Source: a virus
Length of the DNA stretch: 22,085 nucleotides
Virus record (IMG/VR): IMGVR_UViG_3300027857_000061
Span: 1-22,085 of that record
Reading direction: 5' to 3' (one strand)
Part shown: one piece after another, positions 1-15,025 of the stretch
How the letters are laid out: each line of letters starts with the position of its first letter
How positions within the stretch are numbered: the stretch's first letter is position 1
The notes under the pieces: model-generated
Told to the model about the DNA's origin: nothing
The model's input: the letters and a program-made list of their open reading frames with translations, nothing else
Databases searched by the model: none
Translations under genes and position numbers: made by a program

Positions 1-1536
1 AGTAAGCGCGCCAGCATATGAGCTGGTCGTAATGTTCCCAGAACTATCGCTGTTCAGCGCACCGGCACCATATTGCGGAAGTGTCAGCAGTCCGGTCGTC
101 TTGACCTTGACGCCAGCAACGGTGGAACTGCCCTGATTGCTGACCAACCAGACATTCGTATGACCAACGAGGACTATGTCGCCGACAGCGGTACCAGTAA
201 CGACTTGGTTCGTCGCTGCTATGTCGGCGAGGCTGCCATCAGTAGCCGTTCGGGAGAACGATAGTGCCGGAATGTTTCCAGTAGCCCCACTGGAAATTGT
301 CAGCGTAGTATTCGTGCTGTTGCCAGCCAGGATGAAATTGCTACTGTTAAGCGTAGTAGTAGCTGTGGCCGAGCCGAGGACCAGACTCTGCACTTGATCG
401 CCTGGCGTACTATCGCTGGCAACGATGTAAGCTTGCAACTCGTCAGTGCTGGAGTTATTCCGCCACCAGTTAATGCGATACTGGTTCGGAAAGTTAATCG
501 CGTTGAAAACTCCTCCGCCCTGGTCAGACACGGAATTCAGCAGAAAGACAATGCCACGGTCGAAGTGCGGCGTACCGGATAGACCTAGGATTTGAGCAAA
601 CACCAAGCCCGAACTACAATCTGTGGCTCCTGTCTGGCTCGCACAGTTTATCTTAACGCCAATGCTCTGTTTGTCATTATTTCCGTAGATAGTGGAAGGT
701 TGGACAGATTGGTCGTTGCCGACTTGGATCTCTGCCCCGAAGGCCCAGCCGAGTGGCGCTAGCCGCTGGCCTTCGAAGAAGGCCCCCCATGCAGTCGCGG
801 TCGCGCTTGTGTTATTGGAAAAGCCTTGGCCCAGCACAGCGACGCCCAGGTTCGTATTGGCCGGGTTCTGCAGTGCCGTAGTCGTCTGCGCGCCGATGGC
901 GTCATAGCCGTTAGAACTGAGGACGTAGAGCGAGCTGTAGCAGGAGACCTTCGGCGCGCCGTCGCCATAAGTGTTCAGGGCCGTTCCGCCGCGAGTGTTC
1001 GGAATGCAGGAAGAGCCGGAGCCCAGTGTGCTGGTGGCCAGCGAGCCGTCATCCACGAATAAGCGATCTCGCACGCGGAAATCTGGGTTCGCCGTAAAGG
1101 GCGAGACATCGCTCCACCAGGAGCCCAGCGTCGTATTTCCTCCGTAAGAGGAAATGGTTCCGGGCGCAGTGGTGTAGCCCGACCAGATCAAGTTGCCTTG
1201 GGCGTCGTACAGGGCCTCGGTGTAGTTTCCGTTTCCGAAGATGAAGGCGCTACCGGCGCTGTCCAGCACCACTGGATCAGCATTCGCCGTCATCTGGAAG
1301 GCATCTTGCCAAGTCGTCGCTGGACTGGACGGACTCGGCCCGCATGACGTATTCGGTACGCAAGTATAGAGGCTGCCGCCAGCCACAGGCTGGCCATTGG
1401 CATTCAGAAACTGGGTCTTGGCATTGGGCAGGATCTGGGCCGTCTGGGCCAGCGCCACGGGCACGTTGATCGCTAGAGCCAGGACGACACCTAGCGATAT
1501 GACTAGGCCATAAGCCGCATTGCGCAACGTGACCAT
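1..1536 (-). CDS. Tail fibre/spike protein with signal peptide (3' end outside window)
   Basis: This frame is open from its start to the window edge, giving 512 residues without a stop; the C-terminus lies outside. Residues 1-30 look like a Sec signal peptide: a short Arg-containing start, a hydrophobic core (11-24) and a cleavage site ALA|QT. Residues about 37-122 match the N-terminal module common in phage fibres and spikes, with QFLNANGQPVAGGSLYTC and ANADPVVLDSAGSAFIF as landmarks; by family knowledge this module attaches the fibre to the virion. The rest is Gly/Ser/Thr/Asn-rich and beta-like. Residues near 490-510 (LLTLPQYGAGALNSDSSG) resemble the stretch that often precedes a C-terminal S74 chaperone domain. 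Two adjacent ATGs exist at 1539 and 1536. The second sits 6 bases after GGGAG and overlaps the previous stop as TGATG, so I chose it. Likely role is receptor binding. The signal peptide is odd for a fibre. Confidence 0.8.
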   Translation of the reverse strand, partial: MVTLRNAAYGLVISLGVVLALAINVPVALAQTAQILPNAKTQFLNANGQPVAGGSLYTCVPNTSCGPSPSSPATTWQDAFQMTANADPVVLDSAGSAFIFGNGNYTEALYDAQGNLIWSGYTTAPGTISSYGGNTTLGSWWSDVSPFTANPDFRVRDRLFVDDGSLATSTLGSGSSCIPNTRGGTALNTYGDGAPKVSCYSSLYVLSSNGYDAIGAQTTTALQNPANTNLGVAVLGQGFSNNTSATATAWGAFFEGQRLAPLGWAFGAEIQVGNDQSVQPSTIYGNNDKQSIGVKINCASQTGATDCSSGLVFAQILGLSGTPHFDRGIVFLLNSVSDQGGGVFNAINFPNQYRINWWRNNSSTDELQAYIVASDSTPGDQVQSLVLGSATATTTLNSSNFILAGNSTNTTLTISSGATGNIPALSFSRTATDGSLADIAATNQVVTGTAVGDIVLVGHTNVWLVSNQGSSTVAGVKVKTTGLLTLPQYGAGALNSDSSGNITTSSYAGALT

Positions 1537-3599
1537 CATTGGCTCCCGCCTACAGTGTTATCAGCCCCCGCGCCAGTAAAGTAGTTCTCCGGAGCGTTAG
1601 TCGCACTCACTGGGATCGTTATCCGTGCTGCGCCTCCAGGGGCCAGCCAGTTCTCAATTGGCAGCCCACTCACAGTTCGCACGTAATTACTCGTTTCGTC
1701 GGGCAGCTTCTTTGGATCAGCTCCGCTGGCCAGCCATTTGCTGACCTTTCCCGGTCCCCAGTTGTAGGCGGCCAGCGCAAGCCCGCTGTTGCCGAAACGC
1801 TTGCTCAGATCGCTCACGTAGTGCGCCTGGCCCTCGATGCTCTGGGAAACGTCAGTCGGATCTATTCCGTAGTCCTTAGCGGTGTCTGCTGTGAACTGGG
1901 CAATGCCAGTCGCGCCCTGCTTGTTCGCCGGCAAATTCTTGAAGTTGCTCTCCTGCTTCAGCTGACGGGCCAGCATGTCCGCTGGCAGGCCATACTTGGT
2001 TGCACTGGACGCGATAACGGGCTGCAGTTCATCTGGCACATCCTGCAGCGAAGCCCCCTGGGCCGAGCCCACTGGCGCGAAGTAGTTCTTCATCCAGTCC
2101 ACCTTGCTCTGATAGTCCGGGTTGCTGACCACGCTGGGCAGCAGCGGATTGGCCACAGGGCCAACGCCGCCATGGGTCAGCAGATACCTGTACGCCGGAC
2201 TGGCCATGAACGGAAGGGCCAGCGGAGCGGCGGCAGCATTGATCGCCCCATAGGCCGTAGCACCGTGCGCGAGAAGTGGCAAGTGCGGCATCACCTGCTC
2301 CAGGAACGGCATAGCGTGCTCGAAGCCCTCAGCAGCCAGCCCGCCACCAGCCAGGCCCAGAACGGCATTCAGGCCACCACCATGCCCGCTGCTGCCGGGA
2401 GGCACAAAGAGCTGACTACCGCGCGCCAGAACGTCCAGGTCCACTGGATTGCCGGAGCCAGCTGCTGCCGTACTGGCTGACATGCCGCCAGGATACTGCG
2501 CACTGCGCATCGCGGAGATCAAAGCCTTCGGATTGGCTACCCCAGGAGTATCCACACTATTCGCCACCACTCTGTCCAGCACTCGCGAGTTGGCCCACTG
2601 GTTCTGGGCAAGTCGGACGCTCTGGGCCTGACTCGGCGTCAGCGCGCCGCTGTTCAGAGCATCCTCGAAGCGCTGCGGCAGCTCATCATCTGGGATATTT
2701 CTGAATGCTGGATGGACATTCTTGGCCAGAGAGGACTTGATTGCTGCCCGTGCTGCGTCCAAGTTCGCCGCCGTCAGCACGGTGTCGCCACTTCCCGTGC
2801 TGCGCATCAGGCTAGCCGTCACGTCGCTCATGTCGGACTTGCCAAGATGTAGCAGCTTACTCACCGCGCGCAGCATCGGCGGAGCACCAGGCAGCTGCGC
2901 TGCACTGAGCCCAAGGCCTTGTCGGCTCCAGTTCCGCGCAAGTTCGCCAATCTCAGGCGCCACATTGCTGCGGTACGGGGCGAAAAGCATATTGCTGACT
3001 GGGCCGGCCGTGGCGCCGAGCAGCGCTTCGCTGCCCAGATCTTCGTCCTGGCCCATGGCCTTGCCGTAGAGGCCAGTGGTCAGTCCTTGACCCGCCCCCC
3101 AAGTGGCCTGGCTCGCCAGCCGCGCGGCGCGACTACTGCCAGCCAACTGGCCCGTGATGAACCTCGCGGCCTCCTCGAAGAAGGGATTGCCAGCGAGCTT
3201 GCTGGCCAGCTGGCCCGCGCGGAAAACTCCTTGGCCGGCCAATGTGGAAAGCACCACACTCGGCGCCGTGCTGCCCACGAAGTCAGCAGCGACAGCGGCT
3301 GGGCCATTCTGCTTTTCCCAGGCATCCTTCGCCTTAGCCAGCTTGGGGTCAGCGTGCGTCAGCGAGCCGAACGTCGCGCTGTCCAGGGCCTGCCTGGCAG
3401 TGTCCCAGTCCTTAGAGGGATCATACTTCAGACTAAGGGACTGCTCTAGCTCACTGGGCTCCTGCACCGGGGTCAGCATTCGATCCAGTTGCTGATCAAT
3501 TGGATGAGGAGCAGTGACAGCGTTCTGGCCCGCCTTAGCCACTGGGCTTTCGGCCGACAGCAACTGGTCCAGCAGCGTATCTATATGCTCTCCAGCCAT
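1536..3599 (-). CDS. Ejection protein with C-terminal lytic transglycosylase domain (gp16-like position)
   Basis: This 687-residue protein is probably packaged in the virion and ejected with the DNA, cutting peptidoglycan during entry. The C-terminal SLT (transglycosylase) domain spans about residues 525-644. The catalytic glutamate is in KQESNF (Glu550), followed by GATGIAQF and the AAYNWGPG motif near 610-617. Residues 100-470 are Ala/Gly-rich with several hydrophobic stretches that could insert in membrane, but have no fold I recognise. It is the third gene after the gp7-like and gp20-like proteins, which is the gp16 slot of P22. The start codons are GTG at 3602 or ATG at 3599. I chose ATG because it sits 8 bases after GGAG and forms a TGATG overlap with the preceding stop. 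The enzyme domain is clear; placement inside the virion is inferred from gene order. Confidence 0.88.
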   Translation of the reverse strand: MAGEHIDTLLDQLLSAESPVAKAGQNAVTAPHPIDQQLDRMLTPVQEPSELEQSLSLKYDPSKDWDTARQALDSATFGSLTHADPKLAKAKDAWEKQNGPAAVAADFVGSTAPSVVLSTLAGQGVFRAGQLASKLAGNPFFEEAARFITGQLAGSSRAARLASQATWGAGQGLTTGLYGKAMGQDEDLGSEALLGATAGPVSNMLFAPYRSNVAPEIGELARNWSRQGLGLSAAQLPGAPPMLRAVSKLLHLGKSDMSDVTASLMRSTGSGDTVLTAANLDAARAAIKSSLAKNVHPAFRNIPDDELPQRFEDALNSGALTPSQAQSVRLAQNQWANSRVLDRVVANSVDTPGVANPKALISAMRSAQYPGGMSASTAAAGSGNPVDLDVLARGSQLFVPPGSSGHGGGLNAVLGLAGGGLAAEGFEHAMPFLEQVMPHLPLLAHGATAYGAINAAAAPLALPFMASPAYRYLLTHGGVGPVANPLLPSVVSNPDYQSKVDWMKNYFAPVGSAQGASLQDVPDELQPVIASSATKYGLPADMLARQLKQESNFKNLPANKQGATGIAQFTADTAKDYGIDPTDVSQSIEGQAHYVSDLSKRFGNSGLALAAYNWGPGKVSKWLASGADPKKLPDETSNYVRTVSGLPIENWLAPGGAARITIPVSATNAPENYFTGAGADNTVGGSQ

Positions 3600-5029
3600 C
3601 ACTTAGTCTCCGCTGGAGCCAGCACATCGCGCGCAATGCCCTGGGTGATGAGGCCCTTGTCTACTAGCTTCTGGGTGAAGTAGGGCTCATACTGTGTGGG
3701 GTCCTGCATACCGCCGGGCAGCGGCTGATGCTGATGATAGGCGTTATAGATGCTATTGAAGCCAGTGGCCTTGGCGTTGGCGATGGTATTCTGTCGCCGG
3801 ATGAAGTTGAAGATCGCAGTAGCTGCGCGCGGATCGTTCTCGATATTCGGAAAGATGTCAACGATCTTGGAGAACTCCAGATTGGTCAATCTGCCCGCTG
3901 AGCCCTCGCCGCCAGTCTGGGACAGCAACAGCTGGCGAACCGCCATAGTGCCCAAGTTCGTCGCCAGCGTCTCCGCCGTCTGGCCCGCTGGCAAGCTGCC
4001 GTTGGCCACCTTGTCAACTGTCTCGTTACTCACACCCAGAGACTGCAGCAGCTTCGCGGCCTCTTGGTACGCCGAGGCTCCGGCGCCAGCTTTCACTTTC
4101 TGCAGCGCCAGCTGCAGCTGATCGCTGACCTGCTGGAGCGCCGAGGCGTGCGCAGCAGTATTGTTATAGCCCTGTCGCATAGTCTCGATGTCCTGCAGCT
4201 TCTTGGTCTGCGCCGGGCTGGGCGTGCCATAGGTGAAGCTGCTGGGCTCGGGCGCAGCAGGCGTAGTGGCGGCTGGCTGAGCAGCAGGAGCGACTGCCGC
4301 TGCGGGCTGAGGCTGCGCTGCACCTCCGCCACCAGTGGCCAGTGGTCCGCCCGGCTGCATCGGATTGGCCTGACCAGTAACGCTGCTGCGCCAGCCCGGT
4401 ACGCCCTGACCCGTCGCCGGATCGAAGCCCATCGCGGGATCATATTGACCATTGATCTGGCTCAGCGCCTGACGGCCCATCTCCTGCGTCATGGCAAACT
4501 GGCCCAGGCGCTGCTTCAGCACAGCCCCCTGCAGCGGAGCCATGGAGGACAGCCAGGTAATTAAATGCTGCTTATTCCCATCCTTAATGCCGCCTGAGGT
4601 CAGCATATCGCTCGCTGTGTCGATCAGATCTGTCCCCTTCTGCACATTCGGGTCCTTGTACGCCGCAGCGGCCAGTTGGCTCGTAATGCCCATTCGCTTC
4701 TCGTAGCCAGTTAACTCCGCATTCATCGTCTCAGCATCAACGAGTTTCTTCTGGGCGATCTGATTCAGTATGTCCGGCGCCATCCAGGCCGTGTCCGGAT
4801 GTGTGCTGACCAGCACGCCGTACTTAGCCCAGTCCATCTGACCATCTGGCCCCATTGCCTGCTGAGCCAGCGGCCCCAGAGCCTGTCGCGCGCGGAAAGT
4901 CTGCTGGAACAGCGCATTCTGGTTAAGTGCATTCTGAGCCATAGCAAACTGGCCCACCATGCCCACAAGGTTTGGCGATGCCTGGCGGCCGATATTCGCC
5001 ACGATGCTCGGATCAACTGTATCGACCAT
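3599..5029 (-). CDS. Probable internal virion/ejection protein (gp20-like position)
   Basis: The 476-residue product has two mainly helical halves joined by a low-complexity Ala/Pro/Gly/Gln linker at about residues 224-265. The N-terminal half has an amphipathic Ala/Gln-rich segment (25-60). The C-terminal half has a helical stretch near 280-345 and a compact region at 370-440 containing FSKIVDIFPNIENDPRAA. No catalytic motif is visible. Length is close to P22 gp20 (471 residues), and the gene lies between a gp7-like gene and a transglycosylase gene, which is the gp20 slot. The ribosome site is AGGAG, 6 bases before ATG. It overlaps the upstream TAG as TAGGAG, so the two genes should be translated together. 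Assignment rests on position, length and composition; residue similarity to gp20 was not testable here. Confidence 0.65.
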   Translation of the reverse strand: MVDTVDPSIVANIGRQASPNLVGMVGQFAMAQNALNQNALFQQTFRARQALGPLAQQAMGPDGQMDWAKYGVLVSTHPDTAWMAPDILNQIAQKKLVDAETMNAELTGYEKRMGITSQLAAAAYKDPNVQKGTDLIDTASDMLTSGGIKDGNKQHLITWLSSMAPLQGAVLKQRLGQFAMTQEMGRQALSQINGQYDPAMGFDPATGQGVPGWRSSVTGQANPMQPGGPLATGGGGAAQPQPAAAVAPAAQPAATTPAAPEPSSFTYGTPSPAQTKKLQDIETMRQGYNNTAAHASALQQVSDQLQLALQKVKAGAGASAYQEAAKLLQSLGVSNETVDKVANGSLPAGQTAETLATNLGTMAVRQLLLSQTGGEGSAGRLTNLEFSKIVDIFPNIENDPRAATAIFNFIRRQNTIANAKATGFNSIYNAYHQHQPLPGGMQDPTQYEPYFTQKLVDKGLITQGIARDVLAPAETK

Positions 5030-6774: not shown

Positions 6775-9492
6775 TTACGTCTCCGCCAACGAAGTATCTA
6801 GCCACGCGCCCTGGATGCCAGTGAATGCCGCTCCGGACCAGGTGACTTGCAGCACGAAGTCGCGACCTATTCCGCTGACCTGCCGCCACTGCATCTGATA
6901 GAGGTAGTCTCCTTGCGCCCCCATGCTCTGTGTCGGACATTCAAAGAACGTATGGCCTCGGTCATAGCTGACTTCGAGCTGAACGAGCTGCTGCGCCGTA
7001 ATGTGCTGGGCGTCACCATTTCCGCAGTCCATGTCTAGGGCGAAGCGATCAATACTGTGTCTCTTGCCGTCATTAAGCAAGTGTGGAAAGCCACGACGGC
7101 GCGTAATTGGCCCGTTGGCGTCCGTGAACGTATTCAGATCGAGTTCATAGATGTTCCCATTCTGCCAGTCGCCCACGACGTTCGCCCCATAGGCGAAGGC
7201 CATGCAGTTCGCCCGTACTCGGTTCAGTAGCCCGCTGTTCGGATCAGTCCAAGCCCGCTCGTGCCAGAGATTCTCCGTCACATCATAGACGATGGTGGCG
7301 TTCGCGCTGCCAGAACTGAGGACGTAGAAGACATGATCCTGCTGCTTATAGATCATTCCCACGGCGTCGGCGAGATTCGCCCCCGCAGCAACCCAGCCAG
7401 AAATGATCTTCTCAATCGCATAGGTGCTAATTCGCTTCGCGCTGTAGCCCGCCCCCATGAACACTGTTCCCTGGCCCGCTTGGTCCACCCCCAGCCAGAA
7501 CACGTTCAAGTCATGCGTCTGCACACTGTAGGGTGCAATGCAGCCATGCTGGATGAAGACCCCCGGCATGATCTGGAACGGAAAGGCGGCATTTCCGGCG
7601 TCGTACCAGACCTCGGCTGACTCGAAGGCCCCAAGCAGCCAGATCTCTCTATGGACTACGACCAGCGTACTGAGCAGGTCTGGATAGCCGGTCTTAGCTG
7701 CGAGATAAGTCGGATCAAACGCCGGGGCGTTGACAGCAGTCAAAGCATACTGGAAGCCGAAGAGTGTGCCGCTGAGCGATGCACTAAGCACGTCTCCGGC
7801 ATTGTAGCCCAGGCCGCCGGGCAGCAGATGCACGGTGGTAACCACTCCGCCAGTCAGCGTCAAGTTCGCCTTCGCCCCAGTTCCGCTACCGCCGGTCAGC
7901 GACACGTTGTTGTACTGCGTGCTGGCAATTATTCCCTGAGTGCCCGACTGGGTACCAGATGTATCAATGGCGCTGCCGCCGTTTGTGGCAGAGAACTCAA
8001 AGGAGTTCGTCGTCAGCCCAGTTGCGATAACGTAGTACGTAGTGCCAGCAGAGATACCAGTCGGCAGCGCCCCAGTTGTCGTAAAAGTGAACGTGTTGCC
8101 GGCGACCAGTCCGTGGTTGCTCAGCGTGACAACAGCTGGCGAGGCTATGCTGACGGTGACGTTTCGCGCGGCCCCCGTGGCGGTCCCCGCGCCGCCAGCC
8201 TGGATTGTCCCCATCATGGGCTGGCCTGGAGCGCCTGTCAGTTCGCTAAACGTAATGTTACTTAGCGAACTATACCAGTTGCGCGTATTCGGCTGACTCA
8301 GCACAATGAACGTGTCGAGGTAGCCGAGGCCGACGCCGCCCAGAAAGTTCGGATCATTGATCGCCGCGAAAGCGTTGACGGCTACGCCCACTGAGGTCAG
8401 GCCGAACTGGAAACCACCAAAGCCCGGAATGCCCTGCGTGAACAGCACATCGCCGATCAGATAGCCATTACCAGTATTGTCCAGCGAGAACGAAGTGGCC
8501 ACGCCACTAACAAGCTGGAACTCCCCAGTCGCCCCCGTACCTGCACCGCCAGAAAGTGCCACGTTACTGTACGTCCCGCTCTGCGCGCCCAGCGCGGAGA
8601 CTACAAAGTCCTCGCCAGTCAGCCCAGGCACGGCAGCGGTCGTTAGCGTGTCGCCGATGACGTAGCCAGTTCCAGTCTGATTCGCCGTAATGCTAGTCAC
8701 TCCGCCCAGACCACCAGCAGTCAGTGAGCCGTTACCAACTGAGCCAGAATGACCACTAGAGATATTGAAGTTAATGGTCGTCCCAGCAGTGCCAGAAGTT
8801 GCAACGAATGCGGCATTCAGATAACTATTGGCACTAGGATAGCCAGACAGCGTGAAAGAGTCTCCTGGACTAAGTCCATGAGCGAGCGAAGTTGTCACTG
8901 TCGCGGTCAGAAACAGCAGCGTAGTCGCCGATATAGGATTACTCACAATGATGTCGGCAGTCGCTCCGGTGCCGCTTCCGCCAATCAGCGCTGAACCACT
9001 ATAGGTTCCGTTTTTGCCTCCTGACCCAGGGGTGATAGAGTACGCACTCGGCTGTCCCGAGGTAGCGTTGCCCGCATCCAGCACGATACCCGCCAGCGGC
9101 CTGCCGACGATGCCACTTTGCAGGTTGATCGCATAGCCCGCGCTGGTACCGTCCACCAGCACGATCACGTTACCATTGTCCTGCATGGCAACTGGCGTGG
9201 TCAAGTTCGCCGCCAGTGTGCCCAGCAAGTGCAGCGTCCAGGAGCTATCTATGTAATAGACATTCTGGCCGCAGACGTAGTATAAGCTGCCATTGGTCGC
9301 CGTGTAGAGGCAACGCGCGACGCCCGCGACGCTTGGAGTGGCTTTCAGCACGCTGCCCGGCGTCAGCAGATGCGTATATGGAGCTGCAGCATCCTCTGGA
9401 TTCTTCTCCGGGTACAAGTTCAGGCAGCGCTGAGCGTCTGCAATAACGCTGCGCGCGAGGTACGTCCCGCCGAGAAGGTTAATCCTAGCCAC
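6775..9492 (-). CDS. Tail hub / packaged-DNA stabilisation protein (P22 gp10-like) with large insertions
   Basis: P22 gp10 forms the hub that closes the portal channel after packaging and holds the fibres. The N-terminus (residues 1-135) fits that family: ARINLLGGTYLARSVIADAQ, RCLNLYPEKNPED, then LTPGSVLKA, and a beta-propeller-like run. The C-terminus (about 588-905) also fits, with YPDLLSTLVVVHREIWLLGA, GVFIQHGCIAPYSVQ and a final Trp-rich sheet. A further native block lies at 371-418 (NDPNFLGGVGLGYLDTFIVL). Between these, two blocks of Gly/Thr/Ser-rich fibre-type repeats raise the length to 905, against 472 in P22. The start is GTG, 8 bases after GGAGG, overlapping the previous stop as TAGTG. 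The frame is intact throughout, so the insertions are part of the protein and not damage. Confidence 0.85.
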   Translation of the reverse strand: MARINLLGGTYLARSVIADAQRCLNLYPEKNPEDAAAPYTHLLTPGSVLKATPSVAGVARCLYTATNGSLYYVCGQNVYYIDSSWTLHLLGTLAANLTTPVAMQDNGNVIVLVDGTSAGYAINLQSGIVGRPLAGIVLDAGNATSGQPSAYSITPGSGGKNGTYSGSALIGGSGTGATADIIVSNPISATTLLFLTATVTTSLAHGLSPGDSFTLSGYPSANSYLNAAFVATSGTAGTTINFNISSGHSGSVGNGSLTAGGLGGVTSITANQTGTGYVIGDTLTTAAVPGLTGEDFVVSALGAQSGTYSNVALSGGAGTGATGEFQLVSGVATSFSLDNTGNGYLIGDVLFTQGIPGFGGFQFGLTSVGVAVNAFAAINDPNFLGGVGLGYLDTFIVLSQPNTRNWYSSLSNITFSELTGAPGQPMMGTIQAGGAGTATGAARNVTVSIASPAVVTLSNHGLVAGNTFTFTTTGALPTGISAGTTYYVIATGLTTNSFEFSATNGGSAIDTSGTQSGTQGIIASTQYNNVSLTGGSGTGAKANLTLTGGVVTTVHLLPGGLGYNAGDVLSASLSGTLFGFQYALTAVNAPAFDPTYLAAKTGYPDLLSTLVVVHREIWLLGAFESAEVWYDAGNAAFPFQIMPGVFIQHGCIAPYSVQTHDLNVFWLGVDQAGQGTVFMGAGYSAKRISTYAIEKIISGWVAAGANLADAVGMIYKQQDHVFYVLSSGSANATIVYDVTENLWHERAWTDPNSGLLNRVRANCMAFAYGANVVGDWQNGNIYELDLNTFTDANGPITRRRGFPHLLNDGKRHSIDRFALDMDCGNGDAQHITAQQLVQLEVSYDRGHTFFECPTQSMGAQGDYLYQMQWRQVSGIGRDFVLQVTWSGAAFTGIQGAWLDTSLAET
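7732..8235 (-). repeat. Second fibre-like insertion in the hub (residues about 420-587)
   Basis: This in-frame block holds two module types. Residues 445-521 are a 'HGL-type' module: VVTLSNHGLVAGNTFTFTT, then GISAGTTYYVIATG and SFEFSATNGGSAID, a pattern seen in phage tail and fibre proteins. Residues 527-587 are a Gly-rich unit: NNVSLTGGSGTGAKANLTLT, GGVVTTVHLLPGG, LGYNAGDVL, FGFQYALTAV. The second unit repeats modules found in the other insertion. Boundaries are judged by eye, to within about ten residues. Confidence 0.6.
8383..9075 (-). repeat. First fibre-like insertion in the hub (residues about 140-370)
   Basis: This in-frame block contains the Gly-rich unit about twice. One copy (residues 162-300) is interrupted by an HGL-type module, LAHGLSPGDSFTLSGYPSA (203-221). 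The other (306-369) runs GTYSNVALSGGAGTGATGEF, then GNGYLIGDVL and GFQFGLTSVGV. Consensus elements are GTYxxxxLxGGxGTGAxA, GxGYxxGDxL and GFxFxLTxV. Such modules are usual in fibres and rare inside a hub. Confidence 0.6.
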
Positions 9493-9743
9493 TACTTGTG
9501 CCTCCAGCCATTGCAGTGGGCCTTCTCATGATCTTCGATCTGCTTACGTTCGAGCAAGTCTGCCACCACGATCAGGCAGCCCCCAATCGTCCAAAGCGAG
9601 CAGCCATAGATCGTCTTACCAGCCTCGTCCTTGACGCCCAGAAGTTCGCACAGCTCGCCGACTTGCTGCAGCGGACGGACCAGTTCGACCAGCGGCCCAT
9701 CGTAGGGCAGATAGTCCGCAGGTGGCTGCAGAATGTTAAGCAT
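9492..9743 (-). CDS. Small protein with complete HExxHxxGxxH zinc motif
   Basis: This encodes 83 residues. The last twelve contain HEKAHCNGWRH (residues 72-82), which fits the metzincin zinc-peptidase consensus HExxHxxGxxH, with His72, His76 and His82 as possible ligands and Glu73 as base. The rest is too short for a normal metzincin fold. Residues 46-63 hold a mildly hydrophobic stretch (YGCSLWTIGGCLIVVADL). I recall short phage proteins with a similar HExxHCxGW ending near tail genes, but their function is not known to me. An open frame extends back to 9875, inside the esterase gene. ATG at 9743 is preferred because it overlaps the esterase stop as TAATG. The stop overlaps the hub GTG as TAGTG. 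Peptidase activity is a hypothesis; zinc binding alone is an alternative. Confidence 0.72.
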   Translation of the reverse strand: MLNILQPPADYLPYDGPLVELVRPLQQVGELCELLGVKDEAGKTIYGCSLWTIGGCLIVVADLLERKQIEDHEKAHCNGWRHK

Positions 9744-11050
9744 TATCCCACTGCTGCTAGGCCCACCGGCCCATTGTCGTTCGATGAAGGCGCAAGGTCG
9801 CGGTTGAGAAGATAGGGGTAGTGGATGCGGGACGTGTCGATCACGCCTTGTGCCGCGCCTTGAGTTGCCGAGCAAGTTCCAAAATGGACGCCATCAGTAG
9901 TCCAGTAATTAGGTGAACCACACTGCGGAAACGATACACCCGCCTTCCACAAGCCGCTATCCGTTGATGTTTCCGCCGCCGCTGCTTGATCGAAGTAGCC
10001 GCTTACCGGCCCAAAGGTTGCCGCTCGGAGTGCATCATTGAACGTGACGCGCTTGCTTTCCCACGCCTCGGTTGACTGATTTGCCGTCGTTGCCCAGCTG
10101 TCGCTCGAAGTCGTGTATGGTGTAAGGGTTGTCTGAAAGACCTGCATTCCGGCCGGGGCGTAGCCATAGATTGTTGTCAAGTAGCTTTCCAGTTGCGCCG
10201 TCGTCACACCATTCAGGGCAAAATCGTTAATGCCAAACTCAACGATCATGGCCGAACAGTAATTAAGCAACGGCGTTACGATATTGTTTTGAGTGAATTC
10301 GAGCGCGGTTGTTCCCGCCGAGTCTATATGAATATATCCGAAGGACGGTCCTACTGACCGCGCGATCACTTCAATATCACCGCTGGCGTTGCCCAGCCCG
10401 TCATTGTTGGCATAAGCGATGCTATCGCCGACGATGCAGACAGCTGGCTTGGTCGTTTGTGCGATAATAGCGACTGGTGTCAGAAAGTAAGACGTTGTAT
10501 TGCTAGTGATGGTATCACAACTTACCGTCTGATCGCTCAGACCGGAAACGGCAACTCGTGACACGTCGCCCAATGGGGGTGGAGTCACGGTCCCATTGAC
10601 TGCACCAAGATAGATAATGCCAGAGGATGCAGTTTGGTAGAACTGTCGAACTCCAATAATCGCGCCGTCGGGCAGACTCAATGAAACGGGATCACTCGGC
10701 GCCGCAATAGCCGCATTCGCAACTGTGAGCGTTGACGAACCGCTCCACTTGATCTGAGTGCAAGTACCGGGCGGATACTCGACGCTCGCTGTGATCGTGG
10801 CCGATGCCCCGGGACCAATCTGACCGCCGCCGAAGCCGTTGTAGAAATTAGAAAACACGAATTGAGGATTGGTATGGGCTCCACGAACGATGTGAAAACT
10901 CTCAGTCATTAGTTGATTGTGCGTGGTATCGAGCAAAGTTGCGATGCGGGCGCGCGTGGCAATCTCACCAACGTAGCCAATGTTGCCGTGCGTCCATTCT
11001 GGCAATACGATTGCCAGCAACAACCCAAAGACAATTCCTGCACATTTCAA
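9743..11050 (-). CDS. SGNH/GDSL-type esterase-like tail protein with hydrophobic N-terminus
   Basis: The product is 435 residues from the chosen start. All SGNH hydrolase blocks can be seen: VGDSIAY (nucleophile Ser210), SAGTTALEF (Gly246), EFGINDF (Asn275) and TDGVHFG (Asp386, His389). Such enzymes on phage tails remove acetyl or other ester groups from surface polysaccharide; that role is inferred here. Residues about 60-200 form a beta-rich N-terminal domain of unknown type. The first 22 residues (hydrophobic core KCAGIVFGLLLAIVLPEW) resemble a signal peptide or anchor, with a poor cleavage site. No ATG fits. TTG at 11050 follows GGGGG by 5 bases and overlaps the upstream stop as TTGA, so I prefer it. 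TTG at 11062 would add four residues. Sampled GC is lower than in the head genes. Confidence 0.8.
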   Translation of the reverse strand: MKCAGIVFGLLLAIVLPEWTHGNIGYVGEIATRARIATLLDTTHNQLMTESFHIVRGAHTNPQFVFSNFYNGFGGGQIGPGASATITASVEYPPGTCTQIKWSGSSTLTVANAAIAAPSDPVSLSLPDGAIIGVRQFYQTASSGIIYLGAVNGTVTPPPLGDVSRVAVSGLSDQTVSCDTITSNTTSYFLTPVAIIAQTTKPAVCIVGDSIAYANNDGLGNASGDIEVIARSVGPSFGYIHIDSAGTTALEFTQNNIVTPLLNYCSAMIVEFGINDFALNGVTTAQLESYLTTIYGYAPAGMQVFQTTLTPYTTSSDSWATTANQSTEAWESKRVTFNDALRAATFGPVSGYFDQAAAAETSTDSGLWKAGVSFPQCGSPNYWTTDGVHFGTCSATQGAAQGVIDTSRIHYPYLLNRDLAPSSNDNGPVGLAAVG

Positions 11051-11973
11051 AATGGCCCCCAATACGTTGTTTGATTGTTCGTCAACGCTGTAATCTGGCC
11101 TCCCGAAAGCGTAGAAATAAGTCCAGCCTCTACGATTTTGCCTGTGAGAACCCCAATACCATTAAAGAGACATATATCCGTTCCTTGAATGTTGGTTCCA
11201 GCCAGGGCACCTGTTGCAGATGAACTGCCATCGACATAAATTGCAGAACTTGCAGTATTCCAAATACCCTGTAACGAATGAAACTGGTTGTCCGTTGCGG
11301 AGCCTGTAACAACATTGCCGTCATAAAGCGACGGTTGCGCATCTCCTGTCCAGTTCATCATATCAGGATAGCCAGCACTTTCGCCGATGATCGTGCCAAA
11401 AATACCGCTTCCGCTAGTCCGATATGAAACCGCCGTGCTCGAAAACGGCTGTGATGTTGACGGAAAGTAGATATTTGCCGAGCACAAATACTGAGAGCCA
11501 CTGCCTGTCATGCAAGGCAACGAATTGATGCAATTAGCGACAAGCAGTGGACGAGTTGCAATAGTCGCCTGTGTTACATCGCAGGCATGGCCGTTGCAGT
11601 TCGTGCCGCCACTCACATCATAAGCTGTTTTGACTGTGCAATTGGCCCCAGGGCATGTAATACCGCCGATGGTCGCGGGAACAAGCGCACCAGTCGAGGC
11701 GCTACTAAACAGATCGGCACAAGCAACGTCGGTCCCGCCAGTTGAATTGCAGGCATTGACCAGCTTATTACCCATAGTTGCGCTGCTATAAGCACGCAGA
11801 GTAAAATAAACATAGGCGCCGGTTATCTGATCGCCGGGTCCTATGTAGGGAGGAGGCGCAGCAGCACCGCCAAAGCCGCCTCCGACGCCTGTCACGGACA
11901 GTTGCGCCGATGCCTGCCAAACAGAAAACAGTGCGCCGACGATCAGCGCATATGTTACAACAAGTCGGCGCAT
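11047..11973 (-). CDS. Secreted-type, cysteine-rich lectin/arabinofuranosidase-like protein
   Basis: This 308-residue protein starts with a clear signal peptide: MRR, a hydrophobic core (4-18) and ASA|QL after residue 23. A Gly/Pro-rich linker follows (30-46). Residues 53-88 (AYVYFTLRAYSSATMGNK, then TDVACADLF) recall the catalytic-domain start of arabinofuranosidase-B-type phage proteins. Residues 165-305 look like a concanavalin-A/LamG jelly roll, with FHSLQGIWNTASSAIYVDG (231-249) as the best landmark. Ten cysteines lie between residues 75 and 268, unusual for a cytoplasmic phage protein and compatible with disulfides formed after export. It may bind or cut a glycan. The ATG overlaps the previous stop as TGATG. 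The sugar-binding call is moderate, and enzymatic activity is unproven. Confidence 0.72.
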   Translation of the reverse strand: MRRLVVTYALIVGALFSVWQASAQLSVTGVGGGFGGAAAPPPYIGPGDQITGAYVYFTLRAYSSATMGNKLVNACNSTGGTDVACADLFSSASTGALVPATIGGITCPGANCTVKTAYDVSGGTNCNGHACDVTQATIATRPLLVANCINSLPCMTGSGSQYLCSANIYFPSTSQPFSSTAVSYRTSGSGIFGTIIGESAGYPDMMNWTGDAQPSLYDGNVVTGSATDNQFHSLQGIWNTASSAIYVDGSSSATGALAGTNIQGTDICLFNGIGVLTGKIVEAGLISTLSGGQITALTNNQTTYWGPF

Positions 11974-13418
11974 CAGTTGTAATCTATGTTGACGACATAT
12001 GACGCGGCATCGACAGACGTATCATCCGTGGCGCCGATACCCTTGACGACACAGTACGAGATGCCGGTCGAGAACGCCACATCCAGCACCGCCACGTTTG
12101 CCCCAGCGCCATTTGCAGCCGTTGAAGCGGCAGGAATCATAATCTGCTTGACGATGGTATCGCTGGCGCAAGTCGGCGAGGAAGCCTTATTGTAAAATTT
12201 GAGATAGGCAGGCGAAGCATCGATGCCATAGACTTCAACGGCATGAACAATCCCAGCCGCATTTTTGAGATTCGTTGCATTGTCACTATTCGCAGCAACA
12301 AACCATTTCATCGACCAGCCGGCGCAGCCCGAAGGCCCAGCGGCCGTTTGTCCGATGCAATTCGTTCCCGCTGGTACTGCTGCTCCGGTATTCGTCGCAA
12401 TAGTCGCCGCAGAAGCCGCAATCGCCTGTGCTTGAAAGCTAATCTCTTTCTGCACCTGCATCAGCGTGATCGCAGTCGTATCGGTCGCCGTCGATTTGGC
12501 GTCCGCCTTGGTGCCGAGGGTAACGCTGGCGCCATCACTGATTGATCCAGACGTAAAGGCGCCGCTGGCGACGGCACCGGATGCTATAGCGCCAGACGCA
12601 ATTGCGCCGGATGCGAAAGCACCCGAGGCAACGGCTCCCGAAGCAATAGCTCCCGAGCCTATAGCGCCCGAGGCAAACGCCCCAGAGCCGACGGCGCCGG
12701 AGGCGAATGCGCCGGACGCTATCGCTCCGCTTGCAACAGCACCACTCGCGATCCCACCAGATGGAACGACTGCACTGACAAAGCCCACGCCACTGGCAAC
12801 TTTCCAGTTATCCACATTCCCAGTCGCCGTGCCATCAACAGTGCCGCCGATAATGACTGGCGGGTTCGCTGCTGGCGACGCCGCAGCCGTTGGACCATAG
12901 ACTGCCGCACCAGAAATGGTCACATTCGGCGAACAGCCCGCAGCGGCCAGACCGCTGCCGCCAGAGATAATTAAGCTCGTCGTACTGCTCGCCGTGATGG
13001 CAGCCAGATACGTGTTGCTACCCACAGTGTAGCTGCTGTAGCAGCCCGGCGAGACAACATCCTCGCTCGTCGTCGCGGTGACGGCGTTGGAAGTGCCCAG
13101 CTTCACGAAGGCGTTGTTCGTCCCAGTATTGTAGACGACGATGGCCACACCAGTCGGAAGTGCGACATTTCCAGAGGAGTTAGTGACTGAGAGCGTAGCG
13201 TAGGAGCCTCCAGGTGCAAATGCGCCCAGGCTCGCCGTAATGCTGCCGCTGATCGGTAGCGGATTTGTGCTGCTGACTGGGGCATAGACTTGGCCCCCCA
13301 CCGGGTTCGGCGTCACGCCGATATATGGCACCACTGGCGCTTGGGCATGCGCGTGGCCAGAAAGTAGCGAGAGCGCAACGAGCGTACTCGCCAGCAAGTC
13401 GCCAATTTTGCGCCACAT
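11973..13418 (-). CDS. Signal-peptide protein with ASGA pentapeptide tract
   Basis: This 481-residue protein begins with a signal peptide: charged start (MWRK), hydrophobic core (8-19) and AHA|QA after residue 25. Residues 30-57 contain VTPNPVGGQVYAPVSSTNPL, a stretch I know from phage structural proteins. Residues 221-290 are a run of about fourteen ASGA(V/I/F) units. After it comes SISDGASVTLGTKADAKSTA (291-310), a landmark common in phage surface proteins, with a helical segment following (DTTAITLMQVQKEISFQAQA). The C-terminal 120 residues resemble a beta-sandwich, with cysteines at about residues 354, 363 and 418. No enzyme motif is visible. AAGGAG lies 7 bases before ATG. A tail decoration or receptor-binding role is inferred from its position. 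Confidence 0.75.
   Translation of the reverse strand: MWRKIGDLLASTLVALSLLSGHAHAQAPVVPYIGVTPNPVGGQVYAPVSSTNPLPISGSITASLGAFAPGGSYATLSVTNSSGNVALPTGVAIVVYNTGTNNAFVKLGTSNAVTATTSEDVVSPGCYSSYTVGSNTYLAAITASSTTSLIISGGSGLAAAGCSPNVTISGAAVYGPTAAASPAANPPVIIGGTVDGTATGNVDNWKVASGVGFVSAVVPSGGIASGAVASGAIASGAFASGAVGSGAFASGAIGSGAIASGAVASGAFASGAIASGAIASGAVASGAFTSGSISDGASVTLGTKADAKSTATDTTAITLMQVQKEISFQAQAIAASAATIATNTGAAVPAGTNCIGQTAAGPSGCAGWSMKWFVAANSDNATNLKNAAGIVHAVEVYGIDASPAYLKFYNKASSPTCASDTIVKQIMIPAASTAANGAGANVAVLDVAFSTGISYCVVKGIGATDDTSVDAASYVVNIDYN
12540..12758 (-). repeat. 15-base degenerate repeat coding for ASGA(V/I/F) units
   Basis: About fourteen tandem 15-base units encode pentapeptides of the form A/G-S-G-A-V/I/F. 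Codons vary between units (Ala, Gly and Ser wobble positions all change), so the DNA repeats are imperfect while the peptide pattern is almost perfect. That suggests conservation of the protein rather than recent slippage. Five-residue spacing with small and hydrophobic residues could form a beta-helix or fibre shaft. Confidence 0.8.
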
Positions 13419-13442
13419 TGGAGCGCTCCTTCTGCGTGTTGC

Positions 13443-14267
13443 TCAGCGAGCAGCGTGGCGCTTGAGTTGCTCGATCTCAGCCTGTTGCTGTTGGATTGCA
13501 CGAACGAGCACCGGAACGACACCAAGGTAGTCAAACGCATTGGGCTTGCCGGCCAGATCACGGTGCATAAGCTGCGGCAGCACTTGTCCGCCTTGCTCAG
13601 CGCTGAAGCCATAGAGCGTGGCGTCGGGATCGCCATGGTCAGCATTCAACTTATAGCTGATGGGCTCCAGCGCTAGCACGGCGTCGAGGCCAGCACTCAG
13701 CGGCTCCACATCATGCTTAAAGCGGAGAGATGAAGTGCCGAGGCAAATACCGGCCGTACCGCTGCCGAAGTACACAACGTGAGTCGTGGTATCTTCGCAC
13801 AGCGTGGCATCAGTATGCGTCGCGTCCGTGGAGACTGCGACGGTCAAGCCAGCAGCTGTGGTGTTCTGCAGCGTTGTGAATGTGCCGGCAGCAGCCGCTG
13901 TGCCGCCAATAGCAGGCGGAGAGGCCAAATAGGTGCTGAAGCCAGTTCCACTGACTGTGCTACTGGCACTGAGCGTCGTGAACGCACCAGTGCTCGGCGT
14001 AGTGTTGCCAATTGGCCCTGGTGCAGCGAAGCGGGCAGTAAAGCCGGCGCCAGAGACAGTGCTAGTGGCGCTGAGCGTACTGAACGTCCCCGGTGCCGCA
14101 GTGCCGCCACCAGTGATATTGTTCAGTGCTGTGATCGCCTGATTCAGCACAGTGACATCCAAGATGCCGTTACTGTAGCTGGGCGAGTAGAGCGGAATGG
14201 CTGCAGCGTGAGCAAGCGAAATGCTCGCCAGCAGCGCGCAGAAGGAAAGAGCAAGTCGCTTGAGCAT
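13443..14267 (-). CDS. Short tail fibre with S74 intramolecular chaperone domain and signal peptide
   Basis: The 274-residue product starts with a signal peptide (MLKRLALSFCALLASISLAHA, cut after residue 21). Residues 55-135 carry near-repeats of a fibre unit: GTFSTLSATSTVSGAGF, GAFTTLSASSTVSGTGF and GTFTTLQNTT, each followed by a P-P/G-I-G spacer. From about residue 179 there is a peptidase S74 domain: Ser179 and Lys184 (SSLRFK) match the Ser-Lys self-cleavage dyad, then LEPISYKLNADHG, YGFSAEQ and DYLGVVPVLVRAIQQQQAEI. In endosialidase-type fibres this domain drives trimer folding and then cuts itself off. The final helix would trimerise. GGAG lies 8 bases before ATG. The gene follows the gp4-like adaptor by 14 bases. 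Confidence 0.87.
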   Translation of the reverse strand: MLKRLALSFCALLASISLAHAAAIPLYSPSYSNGILDVTVLNQAITALNNITGGGTAAPGTFSTLSATSTVSGAGFTARFAAPGPIGNTTPSTGAFTTLSASSTVSGTGFSTYLASPPAIGGTAAAAGTFTTLQNTTAAGLTVAVSTDATHTDATLCEDTTTHVVYFGSGTAGICLGTSSLRFKHDVEPLSAGLDAVLALEPISYKLNADHGDPDATLYGFSAEQGGQVLPQLMHRDLAGKPNAFDYLGVVPVLVRAIQQQQAEIEQLKRHAAR

Positions 14268-14281
14268 AGTGGTTCTCCGTT

Positions 14282-15025
14282 CTAGGTGATCTGATCGCTG
14301 TACGGATTGTAGACGCCGGGGCGGATCAGATCGTCCGGCATTCTCAGGCGTGCGATTGCCGCAGCGGCATCGCGCAGAACTTCGCGAGACTCCTTAGCGC
14401 GGCCAGACAGCCCCGGATCAGGCGGCAAACGGTACGCACTACGCAGTATCTCGGCCAAGGACTCGTAGATCGCCTTGAAATACTCGTTCGGCAGAGTGTT
14501 GTCCAGGACGGTCGTTAGCGCGCTGGCCATAATGATGTCAATGAGGGTCGCCTTGACCAGTACATTCATGCTGTACAAGTTGGCCTGCGGAATGGGCCAG
14601 AAGTACAGCTTGCCCACCGGATACGCTGGGTCATAGAACACGTAGCCGGGGAAGGTGCTCAGGGCCTTCAGCGCGATTCTATTGTAGTCCTCCCAGCTTT
14701 CCAGCAGCTCTAGCGGATAGTCCACCTGGTTCGGGCTGCTCTGTATCAGCTGCCTGAAGAAGCAGCCACTTTCCAGTCTGTCCGGCCTCGTGCCGATGAC
14801 GAACTGCTGACCTGGGCCAATTGTGTACGGAGTGGTCTGGCCCGTACTGGTGAACGCCAGATTGACTAGATGGAAGACCAAATACCTTTTGCGCTGCCAT
14901 TGCTGGATCATCCACTGCATGCGCGTATAGGCGTTGTTCACGTCCTCGGCGCTCGCGGTCTGGCCCTGGCCAATTATGCCGGCGTCGAGCAGGGCCAGAT
15001 TGATAATGTCCAGCGTAGTGGTCAT
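14282..15025 (-). CDS. Tail adaptor / head completion protein (P22 gp4-like)
   Basis: In P22, gp4 binds under the portal after packaging and starts tail assembly. This 247-residue protein carries the family pattern: ALLDAGIIGQGQTASAEDVN (residues 11-30), then TRMQWMIQQWQRKRYLVFHL (34-53), QTTPYTIGPGQQFVIGTRPD (63-82), and YDPAYPVGKLYFWPIP near 152-167. The C-terminal helix contains RSAYRLPPDPGLSGRAKESR. It is longer than P22 gp4 (166 residues) and closer to related podovirus proteins. ATG overlaps the preceding stop as ATGA, so translation is probably coupled. In P22 the hub gene comes next; here a tail-protein cassette intervenes. Confidence 0.88.
   Translation of the reverse strand: MTTTLDIINLALLDAGIIGQGQTASAEDVNNAYTRMQWMIQQWQRKRYLVFHLVNLAFTSTGQTTPYTIGPGQQFVIGTRPDRLESGCFFRQLIQSSPNQVDYPLELLESWEDYNRIALKALSTFPGYVFYDPAYPVGKLYFWPIPQANLYSMNVLVKATLIDIIMASALTTVLDNTLPNEYFKAIYESLAEILRSAYRLPPDPGLSGRAKESREVLRDAAAAIARLRMPDDLIRPGVYNPYSDQIT

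Follow-up and report, generated by a model that had tools for sequence, protein, structure and literature searches.

Secretion signals on the host-gripping tail fibres of an uncultured soil phage group suggest folding outside the cytoplasm and joining to the particle around lysis

We examined a window of 22,085 bases (the whole stretch of DNA analysed here, from IMG/VR virus record IMGVR_UViG_3300027857_000061), which belongs to an uncultured group of soil phages and carries five genes whose products begin with predicted secretion signals. All large genes lie on the minus strand, and P22-type portal, coat, gp4 and gp10 are all found, so that the window holds a P22-like morphogenesis module (Table 1; genes were called with a home-made program). 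The P22-like adjacency of gp4 and gp10, present in phage PAE2 and in the relatives L029 and L033, is lacking in the window, where about 4.8 kb of other genes separates the two. Re-reading of the open reading frames bore out the coordinates and the placement that an initial annotation of this DNA had assigned to four consecutive genes between gp4 and gp10; its view that this cassette separates them holds, with an additional gene of 83 residues before gp10. The cassette encodes, from gp4 towards gp10, an S74 fibre protein, a repeat-rich protein, a LamG/concanavalin-like protein and an SGNH/GDSL esterase, and the fifth signal-bearing protein is a tailspike or fibre at the left edge.

The N-termini of these five proteins have the features of Sec substrates cleaved by signal peptidase I: a positively charged n-region, a hydrophobic core of nine or more residues and an A-x-A-type site. 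No later transmembrane stretch was found in any of the five. Signals were scored by combining a von Heijne cleavage matrix with the hydrophobic core and the charge of the n-region, and the score was calibrated on 148 annotated Escherichia coli K-12 genes, where values of at least 6 were reached by 27/27 secreted and 11/40 inner-membrane proteins and values of at least 3 by 0/81 cytosolic proteins. All five window proteins score between 10.4 and 17.7, within the range of the E. coli secreted proteins, which upholds the Sec-like N-termini that the initial annotation had recognized on the cassette proteins and on the left-edge fibre. None of the remaining 14 window proteins gave a signal score from its annotated start; the gene at 3599-5029 scores 8.7, but only when an internal start is allowed. 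The starts of the five genes are supported by coupling to a stop codon or by a ribosome site upstream: three overlap the preceding stop (ATGA at 1539, TGATG at 11973, TTGA at 11050), and Shine-Dalgarno sequences precede those at 14267 and 13418. The esterase had been thought to carry a weaker signal than the others; once it is read from TTG 11050, a codon shared in part with the stop of the LamG-like gene, the predicted signal is sound and not clearly weaker than the other four.

Table 1. Features of the window and of related contigs. Positions refer to the window unless a contig is named; a slash marks the predicted cleavage site.
Feature	Position	Strand	Signal/mature N-terminus	Signal codons	Score	Mature cysteines	Remarks
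gp4-type head-tail adaptor	14282..15025	-	no signal				42% identity to the PAE2 tail accessory factor (P22-type); phrog_637
S74 fibre protein	13443..14267	-	MLKRLALSFCALLASISLAHA/AAIPLYSP	14205-14267	17.7	2	
Repeat-rich protein	11973..13418	-	MWRKIGDLLASTLVALSLLSGHAHA/QAPVVP	13344-13418	15.8	6	ASGA-type repeats
LamG/concanavalin-like protein	11047..11973	-	MRRLVVTYALIVGALFSVWQASA/QLSVTG	11905-11973	10.4	10	
SGNH/GDSL esterase	9743..11050	-	MKCAGIVFGLLLAIVLPEWTHG/NIGYVG	10985-11050	13.0	6	preferred start TTG 11050
Small 83-residue gene	9492..9743	-	no signal				between esterase and gp10; kept in relative L026/G003, 73% identity in L026
gp10-type hub/head closure protein	6775..9492	-	no signal				phrog_578 E 1.3e-78
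Tailspike/fibre, left edge	1..1539	-	MMVTLRNAAYGLVISLGVVLALAINVPVALA/QTAQILPNAK	1447-1539	12.6	6 in part present	3' end cut by window edge
Portal							P22-type; PF16510 E 3e-141
Coat							P22-type; PF11651 E 2e-30
Scaffold							further part of virion module
gp7-type ejection protein							further part of virion module
Lytic transglycosylase protein							further part of virion module
Near-portal/terminase motif protein	G002 1869-2546						
Near-portal/terminase motif protein	G003 26256-27605						
Near-portal/terminase motif protein	G004 56830-58296						
Near-portal/terminase motif protein	G005 43904-45142						
Near-portal/terminase motif protein	G006 37091-38356						
Tat-like/coat-fragment protein	L027 431-895						
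Tat-like/coat-fragment protein	G005 49874-50260						in L014
Tat-like/coat-fragment protein	G006 42100-42513						
Tat-like/coat-fragment protein	G002 44425-45015						
Open reading frame with coat-like fragments	G002 35645-36529						L093 15645-16529; 294 residues
Tail-fibre neighbour, Microcystis phage Mae-JY35	L107 6447-7679		MVLFILAFLLSASPASA/AMTC			4	signal-like, no positive charge

The label of tail protein is firm for two of the five. The S74 protein ends in a chaperone-of-endosialidase domain (PF13884, E 6.5e-8, 33.2 bits against a cut-off of 22) and also matches tail-fibre families in PHROGs, and the left fibre carries a P22/Pam1-type tailspike head-binding domain after its signal. 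For the esterase the label is good: phrog_8480 matches at E 1e-51 across residues 34-399. Against the Pfam GDSL family the esterase reached 17.2 bits, below the cut-off of 32.9, a scan of viral contigs with its peptide patterns gave no match, and no signal is present on the esterases of the isolates Lo5R7ANS and RHph_N2. The label is weak for the LamG-like and repeat-rich proteins, for which low similarity and gene context suggest it. The LamG-like protein scores 22.3 bits against PF13385 (Laminin_G_3; E 1.6e-4), under the cut-off of 27.6, and its AlphaFold model, made from the single sequence without an alignment, has a predicted local distance difference test value (pLDDT) of 30; most of its mature cysteines sit in closely spaced pairs. 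Only weak family matches were obtained for the repeat-rich protein, whose homologues in relatives bear signals.

The tailspikes allow the same virion domain to be compared with and without a signal. A profile of the head-binding domain built from 14 homologues, including the window protein, matches the solved tailspike structure PDB 7eeq (E 6e-12) and also 9vyg, while the window left-fibre sequence alone found no match in PDB. In signal-less tailspikes this domain opens at the initiator methionine (M-ATLLPEGKQ in P26218, M-ATLLPNAKQ in L033, M-TQLLPNGKQ in PAE2), and in signal-bearing ones the predicted cuts meet the domain start (GSAQA/ATLLPNGKQ in L037, VSAHA/ATLLPNGKQ in L044, SVNA/ATLLPPGKQ in L047, AAYA/ATLLPNGKQ in G005). 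A scan for the pattern LLPNGKQxF returned 40 stretches, some of them from phages already in the set, and most belong to one or other of these classes. In 11/11 genomes exactly one tailspike of this type was found, in 8 of them with a signal. Signal-less tailspikes also occur in close relatives; the signal has therefore been gained, lost or exchanged, and the coat-protein tree does not tell these histories apart.

A second paired case is provided by the first gene after gp4 in relatives of the window (the window itself lacks it). Its product is a signal-bearing protein of about 166 residues with four conserved cysteines, and it is homologous to signal-less proteins encoded at the same place elsewhere (hhalign probability 96%, E 5.5e-9), which mostly have 0-3 cysteines. 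Its AlphaFold model (mean pLDDT 78) resembles tailspike and T4 gp9/gp10-type connector structures, predicted fold matches that a tail component would be expected to give.

Even numbers of cysteines are favoured in the proteins that Gram-negative bacteria export, a bias held to curb incorrect disulfide pairing (PMC7678975). We compared parity in 20 genomes or contigs between 92 signal-bearing proteins (score at least 9 and at most one further transmembrane stretch) and 785 other proteins. Among those that contain cysteine, the mature count is even in 75/80 signal-bearing proteins versus 248/555 others (Fisher p about 1e-18). The difference is also seen with one protein per homology cluster (33/38 versus 139/314; binomial p 2e-6 for the signal-bearing set) and with proteins matched for cysteine number, from 5 to 20 (33/35 versus 77/152). 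Cysteine density per 100 residues is 1.58 in signal-bearing proteins and 0.96 in the others, and two phages of other types show the same bias (7/7 and 6/6). The E. coli secreted control set bears the test out, with even counts in all 15 of its cysteine-containing proteins. The five window proteins all have even mature counts, the left fibre in the part present (Table 1), the predicted mark of disulfide pairing and of oxidative folding. None of the 92 signal-bearing genes has a start with a Shine-Dalgarno sequence near the cleavage site that would yield a signal-less isoform. The signals share no common sequence and resemble ordinary bacterial ones, with AxA/Q and AxA/A the most frequent cleavage sites.

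Scans with portal and gp4 yielded about 30 related contigs, many near 55-62 kb, in which gp4 and gp10 lie anywhere between a few bases and about 7 kb apart; no relative was found when the gp4 profile was run against bacterial genomes. The initial annotation had proposed a search of related phages for the same cassette, and signal-bearing proteins are indeed shared with them. The window falls in a clade of nine rows with 100/100 support in the coat-protein tree; two rows end before the gp4-gp10 interval, and every member with a readable interval encodes proteins with signals in it; G005, G006 and L027 do so too. In the remaining related contigs the interval is empty or holds only signal-less genes. 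Signal-bearing genes of the relatives are also located at the tailspike locus and upstream of the portal. Contigs reached through the S74 protein show signals in unrelated phages as well: G012 has a tail sheath and a different portal family and is therefore a myovirus, and G013 is a third phage type with a different head. A named phage, Bradyrhizobium phage ppBdUSDA122-1, has an annotated tail fibre with a signal and 18 mature cysteines (WAX24263) beside a neighbour with a signal and 6 mature cysteines (WAX24264), as here, although its tape measure gene marks it as long-tailed and not P22-like; accessible papers make no mention of these signals. The trait is not general, since the collar or tail fibres of six cultured phages chosen by similarity (LE3, RHph_N28_2, phiLM21, Mae-JY35, PHB04 and PAE2) have no signal at the threshold.

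Several other features of these phages were observed. The signal-bearing proteins encoded near the portal or terminase have 4-8 cysteines and a common N-terminal motif, G-x-(W/F/Y)-P-G-(L/Y)-P or a near variant; one of them was searched against phage isolates, Pfam and PHROGs and gave no match. Small proteins in relatives consist of a Tat-like signal (SRRGFLAGLGA...APAIVR or MKRRDVLLGG) fused to a fragment of the coat protein of the same phage, either its N-terminal 60 or its C-terminal 65 residues, approximately, which would make them exported mimics of the coat protein, and one G002 open reading frame carries rearranged coat-like fragments. A neighbour of the tail fibre in Microcystis phage Mae-JY35 begins with a signal-like stretch (Table 1). 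The window gp10 has 905 residues versus about 475-530 in most distant relatives, the extra length being due to a long middle insertion at about residues 130-580. A Pfam match of the coat protein to beta-lactamase was under the cut-off and was disregarded.

Taken as a whole, the predicted export to the periplasm, one of the fates offered in the initial annotation, is well supported by signal quality, by even mature cysteine counts and by cuts that restore the signal-less N-terminus exactly or within about two residues. That the signals would work is indicated by cysteine parity, by the position of the tailspike cuts and by the occurrence of the post-gp4 protein with and without a signal. We propose that the five proteins are tail appendages of the tailspike or fibre type, synthesized as precursors with cleavable Sec signals. 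The precursors would cross the inner membrane, be trimmed by signal peptidase to an N-terminus at or near that of ordinary tailspikes, and fold and form disulfides in the oxidizing periplasm. Heads with gp4/gp10 tails would meanwhile be built in the cytoplasm as in P22, and lysis would mix the compartments and allow the exported appendages to bind heads. As a precedent, heads and base-plate parts of P22 combine in vitro (Israel 1967, as described in PMC3741392). There is a single tailspike gene in each genome, and its exported product is therefore probably the one that the virion uses. Exported, periplasm-oxidized tail appendages that bind particles at or after lysis are in our judgement the best explanation overall, and a fairly probable one. 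Whether such a split route, with cytoplasmic heads and tails and Sec-exported, disulfide-bonded appendages, operates in at least three unrelated types of tailed phage is a more evenly balanced question.

Several points weigh against this proposal. The signal score is a scheme of our own and not SignalP. In the window the predicted cut (VALA/QTAQILPNAK) leaves two extra residues, QT, which its closest relatives also retain, and in a few other tailspikes it falls 1-4 residues off the domain start. Parity is uninformative within the tailspike family, where counts are even in 4/6 proteins with a signal and 7/17 without. The tailspikes of the cultured relatives PAE2, P26218, BA3, X14 and PBR31 have no signal, and the trait is therefore dispensable for this architecture. 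Trimer formation and the self-processing of S74 proteins would also have to proceed in the periplasm. Export and attachment do not stand equally: the earlier suggestion that these proteins join virions after lysis is the best fit, but attachment itself is something we infer, from a tailspike that keeps the domain for binding the virion and from genomes that have no second tailspike gene.

The evidence for export serves equally well a different outcome, in which the proteins never enter the virion and act on the surface of the infected cell, where they would mask or trim receptors, block superinfection or keep progeny from sticking to debris. Surface glycans could be modified or bound by the esterase and the LamG-like protein, and bacteria are known to export a protein with a tailspike-like fold (Pantoea WceF, PMC7949094). 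However, the signal-bearing tailspike still has the domain that binds the virion, no second tailspike gene accompanies it in its genome, and the genes sit inside the virion operon, coupled to virion genes. We therefore regard a purely surface role as rather unlikely, while additional roles at the infected-cell surface are possible for proteins that also join the particle.

The two remaining accounts, both raised in the initial annotation, fit the evidence poorly. Hydrophobic N-termini might be retained and either anchor the protein in a membrane or plug the virion, and sequence cannot always tell anchors from other hydrophobic N-termini, as the inner-membrane proteins in our calibration illustrate. 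The good A-x-A sites, the short cores, the lack of later transmembrane stretches, the variety of signal sequences, the cuts at or near the ancestral domain start and the cysteine pairing nevertheless make this very improbable. Slightly less credible still is the view that the signals came along when genes for secreted host proteins were captured and survive as relics, while their bearers stay in the cytoplasm and assemble normally. The ordinary bacterial look and varied sequence of the signals, and the same-family tailspikes that lack them, agree with it. But the occurrence of the same virion domains with and without signals indicates addition to, or loss from, phage genes, even cysteine counts are unexpected in a reducing cytoplasm, and a large proportion of the varied relatives have kept signals.

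Among known systems, the P22-like tailspikes (gp9; 7eeq; Shewanella phage X14; P26218, PAE2) are closest: they have the same head-binding domain, one copy per genome and the same locus after the ejection-protein genes, and they differ in starting the domain at the initiator methionine, whereas here a cleavable signal precedes it. The pIII and pVIII virion proteins of filamentous phages are made with signal peptides, and pIII gains disulfides in the periplasm; those phages, however, assemble in the membrane and are secreted, while the phages described here are tailed with preformed heads, and no homology is claimed. Signal-arrest-release endolysins, spanin lipoproteins and lambda Lom are also phage products sent through Sec, but no tail appendage carrying a virion-binding domain is among them. 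WceF of Pantoea stewartii, a tailspike-like trimer with an export signal, indicates that such a fold is exportable; it differs in being bacterial and Tat-dependent and in acting on the host's own exopolysaccharide (PMC7949094). Searches of the open full-text literature, which leaves subscription papers mostly outside, turned up no account of tailed phages whose tail fibres bear Sec signals.

For double-stranded DNA phages, both the folding of tail appendages and their attachment are assumed to take place in the reducing cytoplasm. If the proposed route is true, disulfide-stabilized fibres, dependence on host Sec and Dsb, and completion of the particle at lysis would enter phage biology, and fibres of this kind made in the cytoplasm would be expected to misfold. 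Annotation that takes a signal peptide as the mark of a non-virion protein would then miss receptor-binding proteins.

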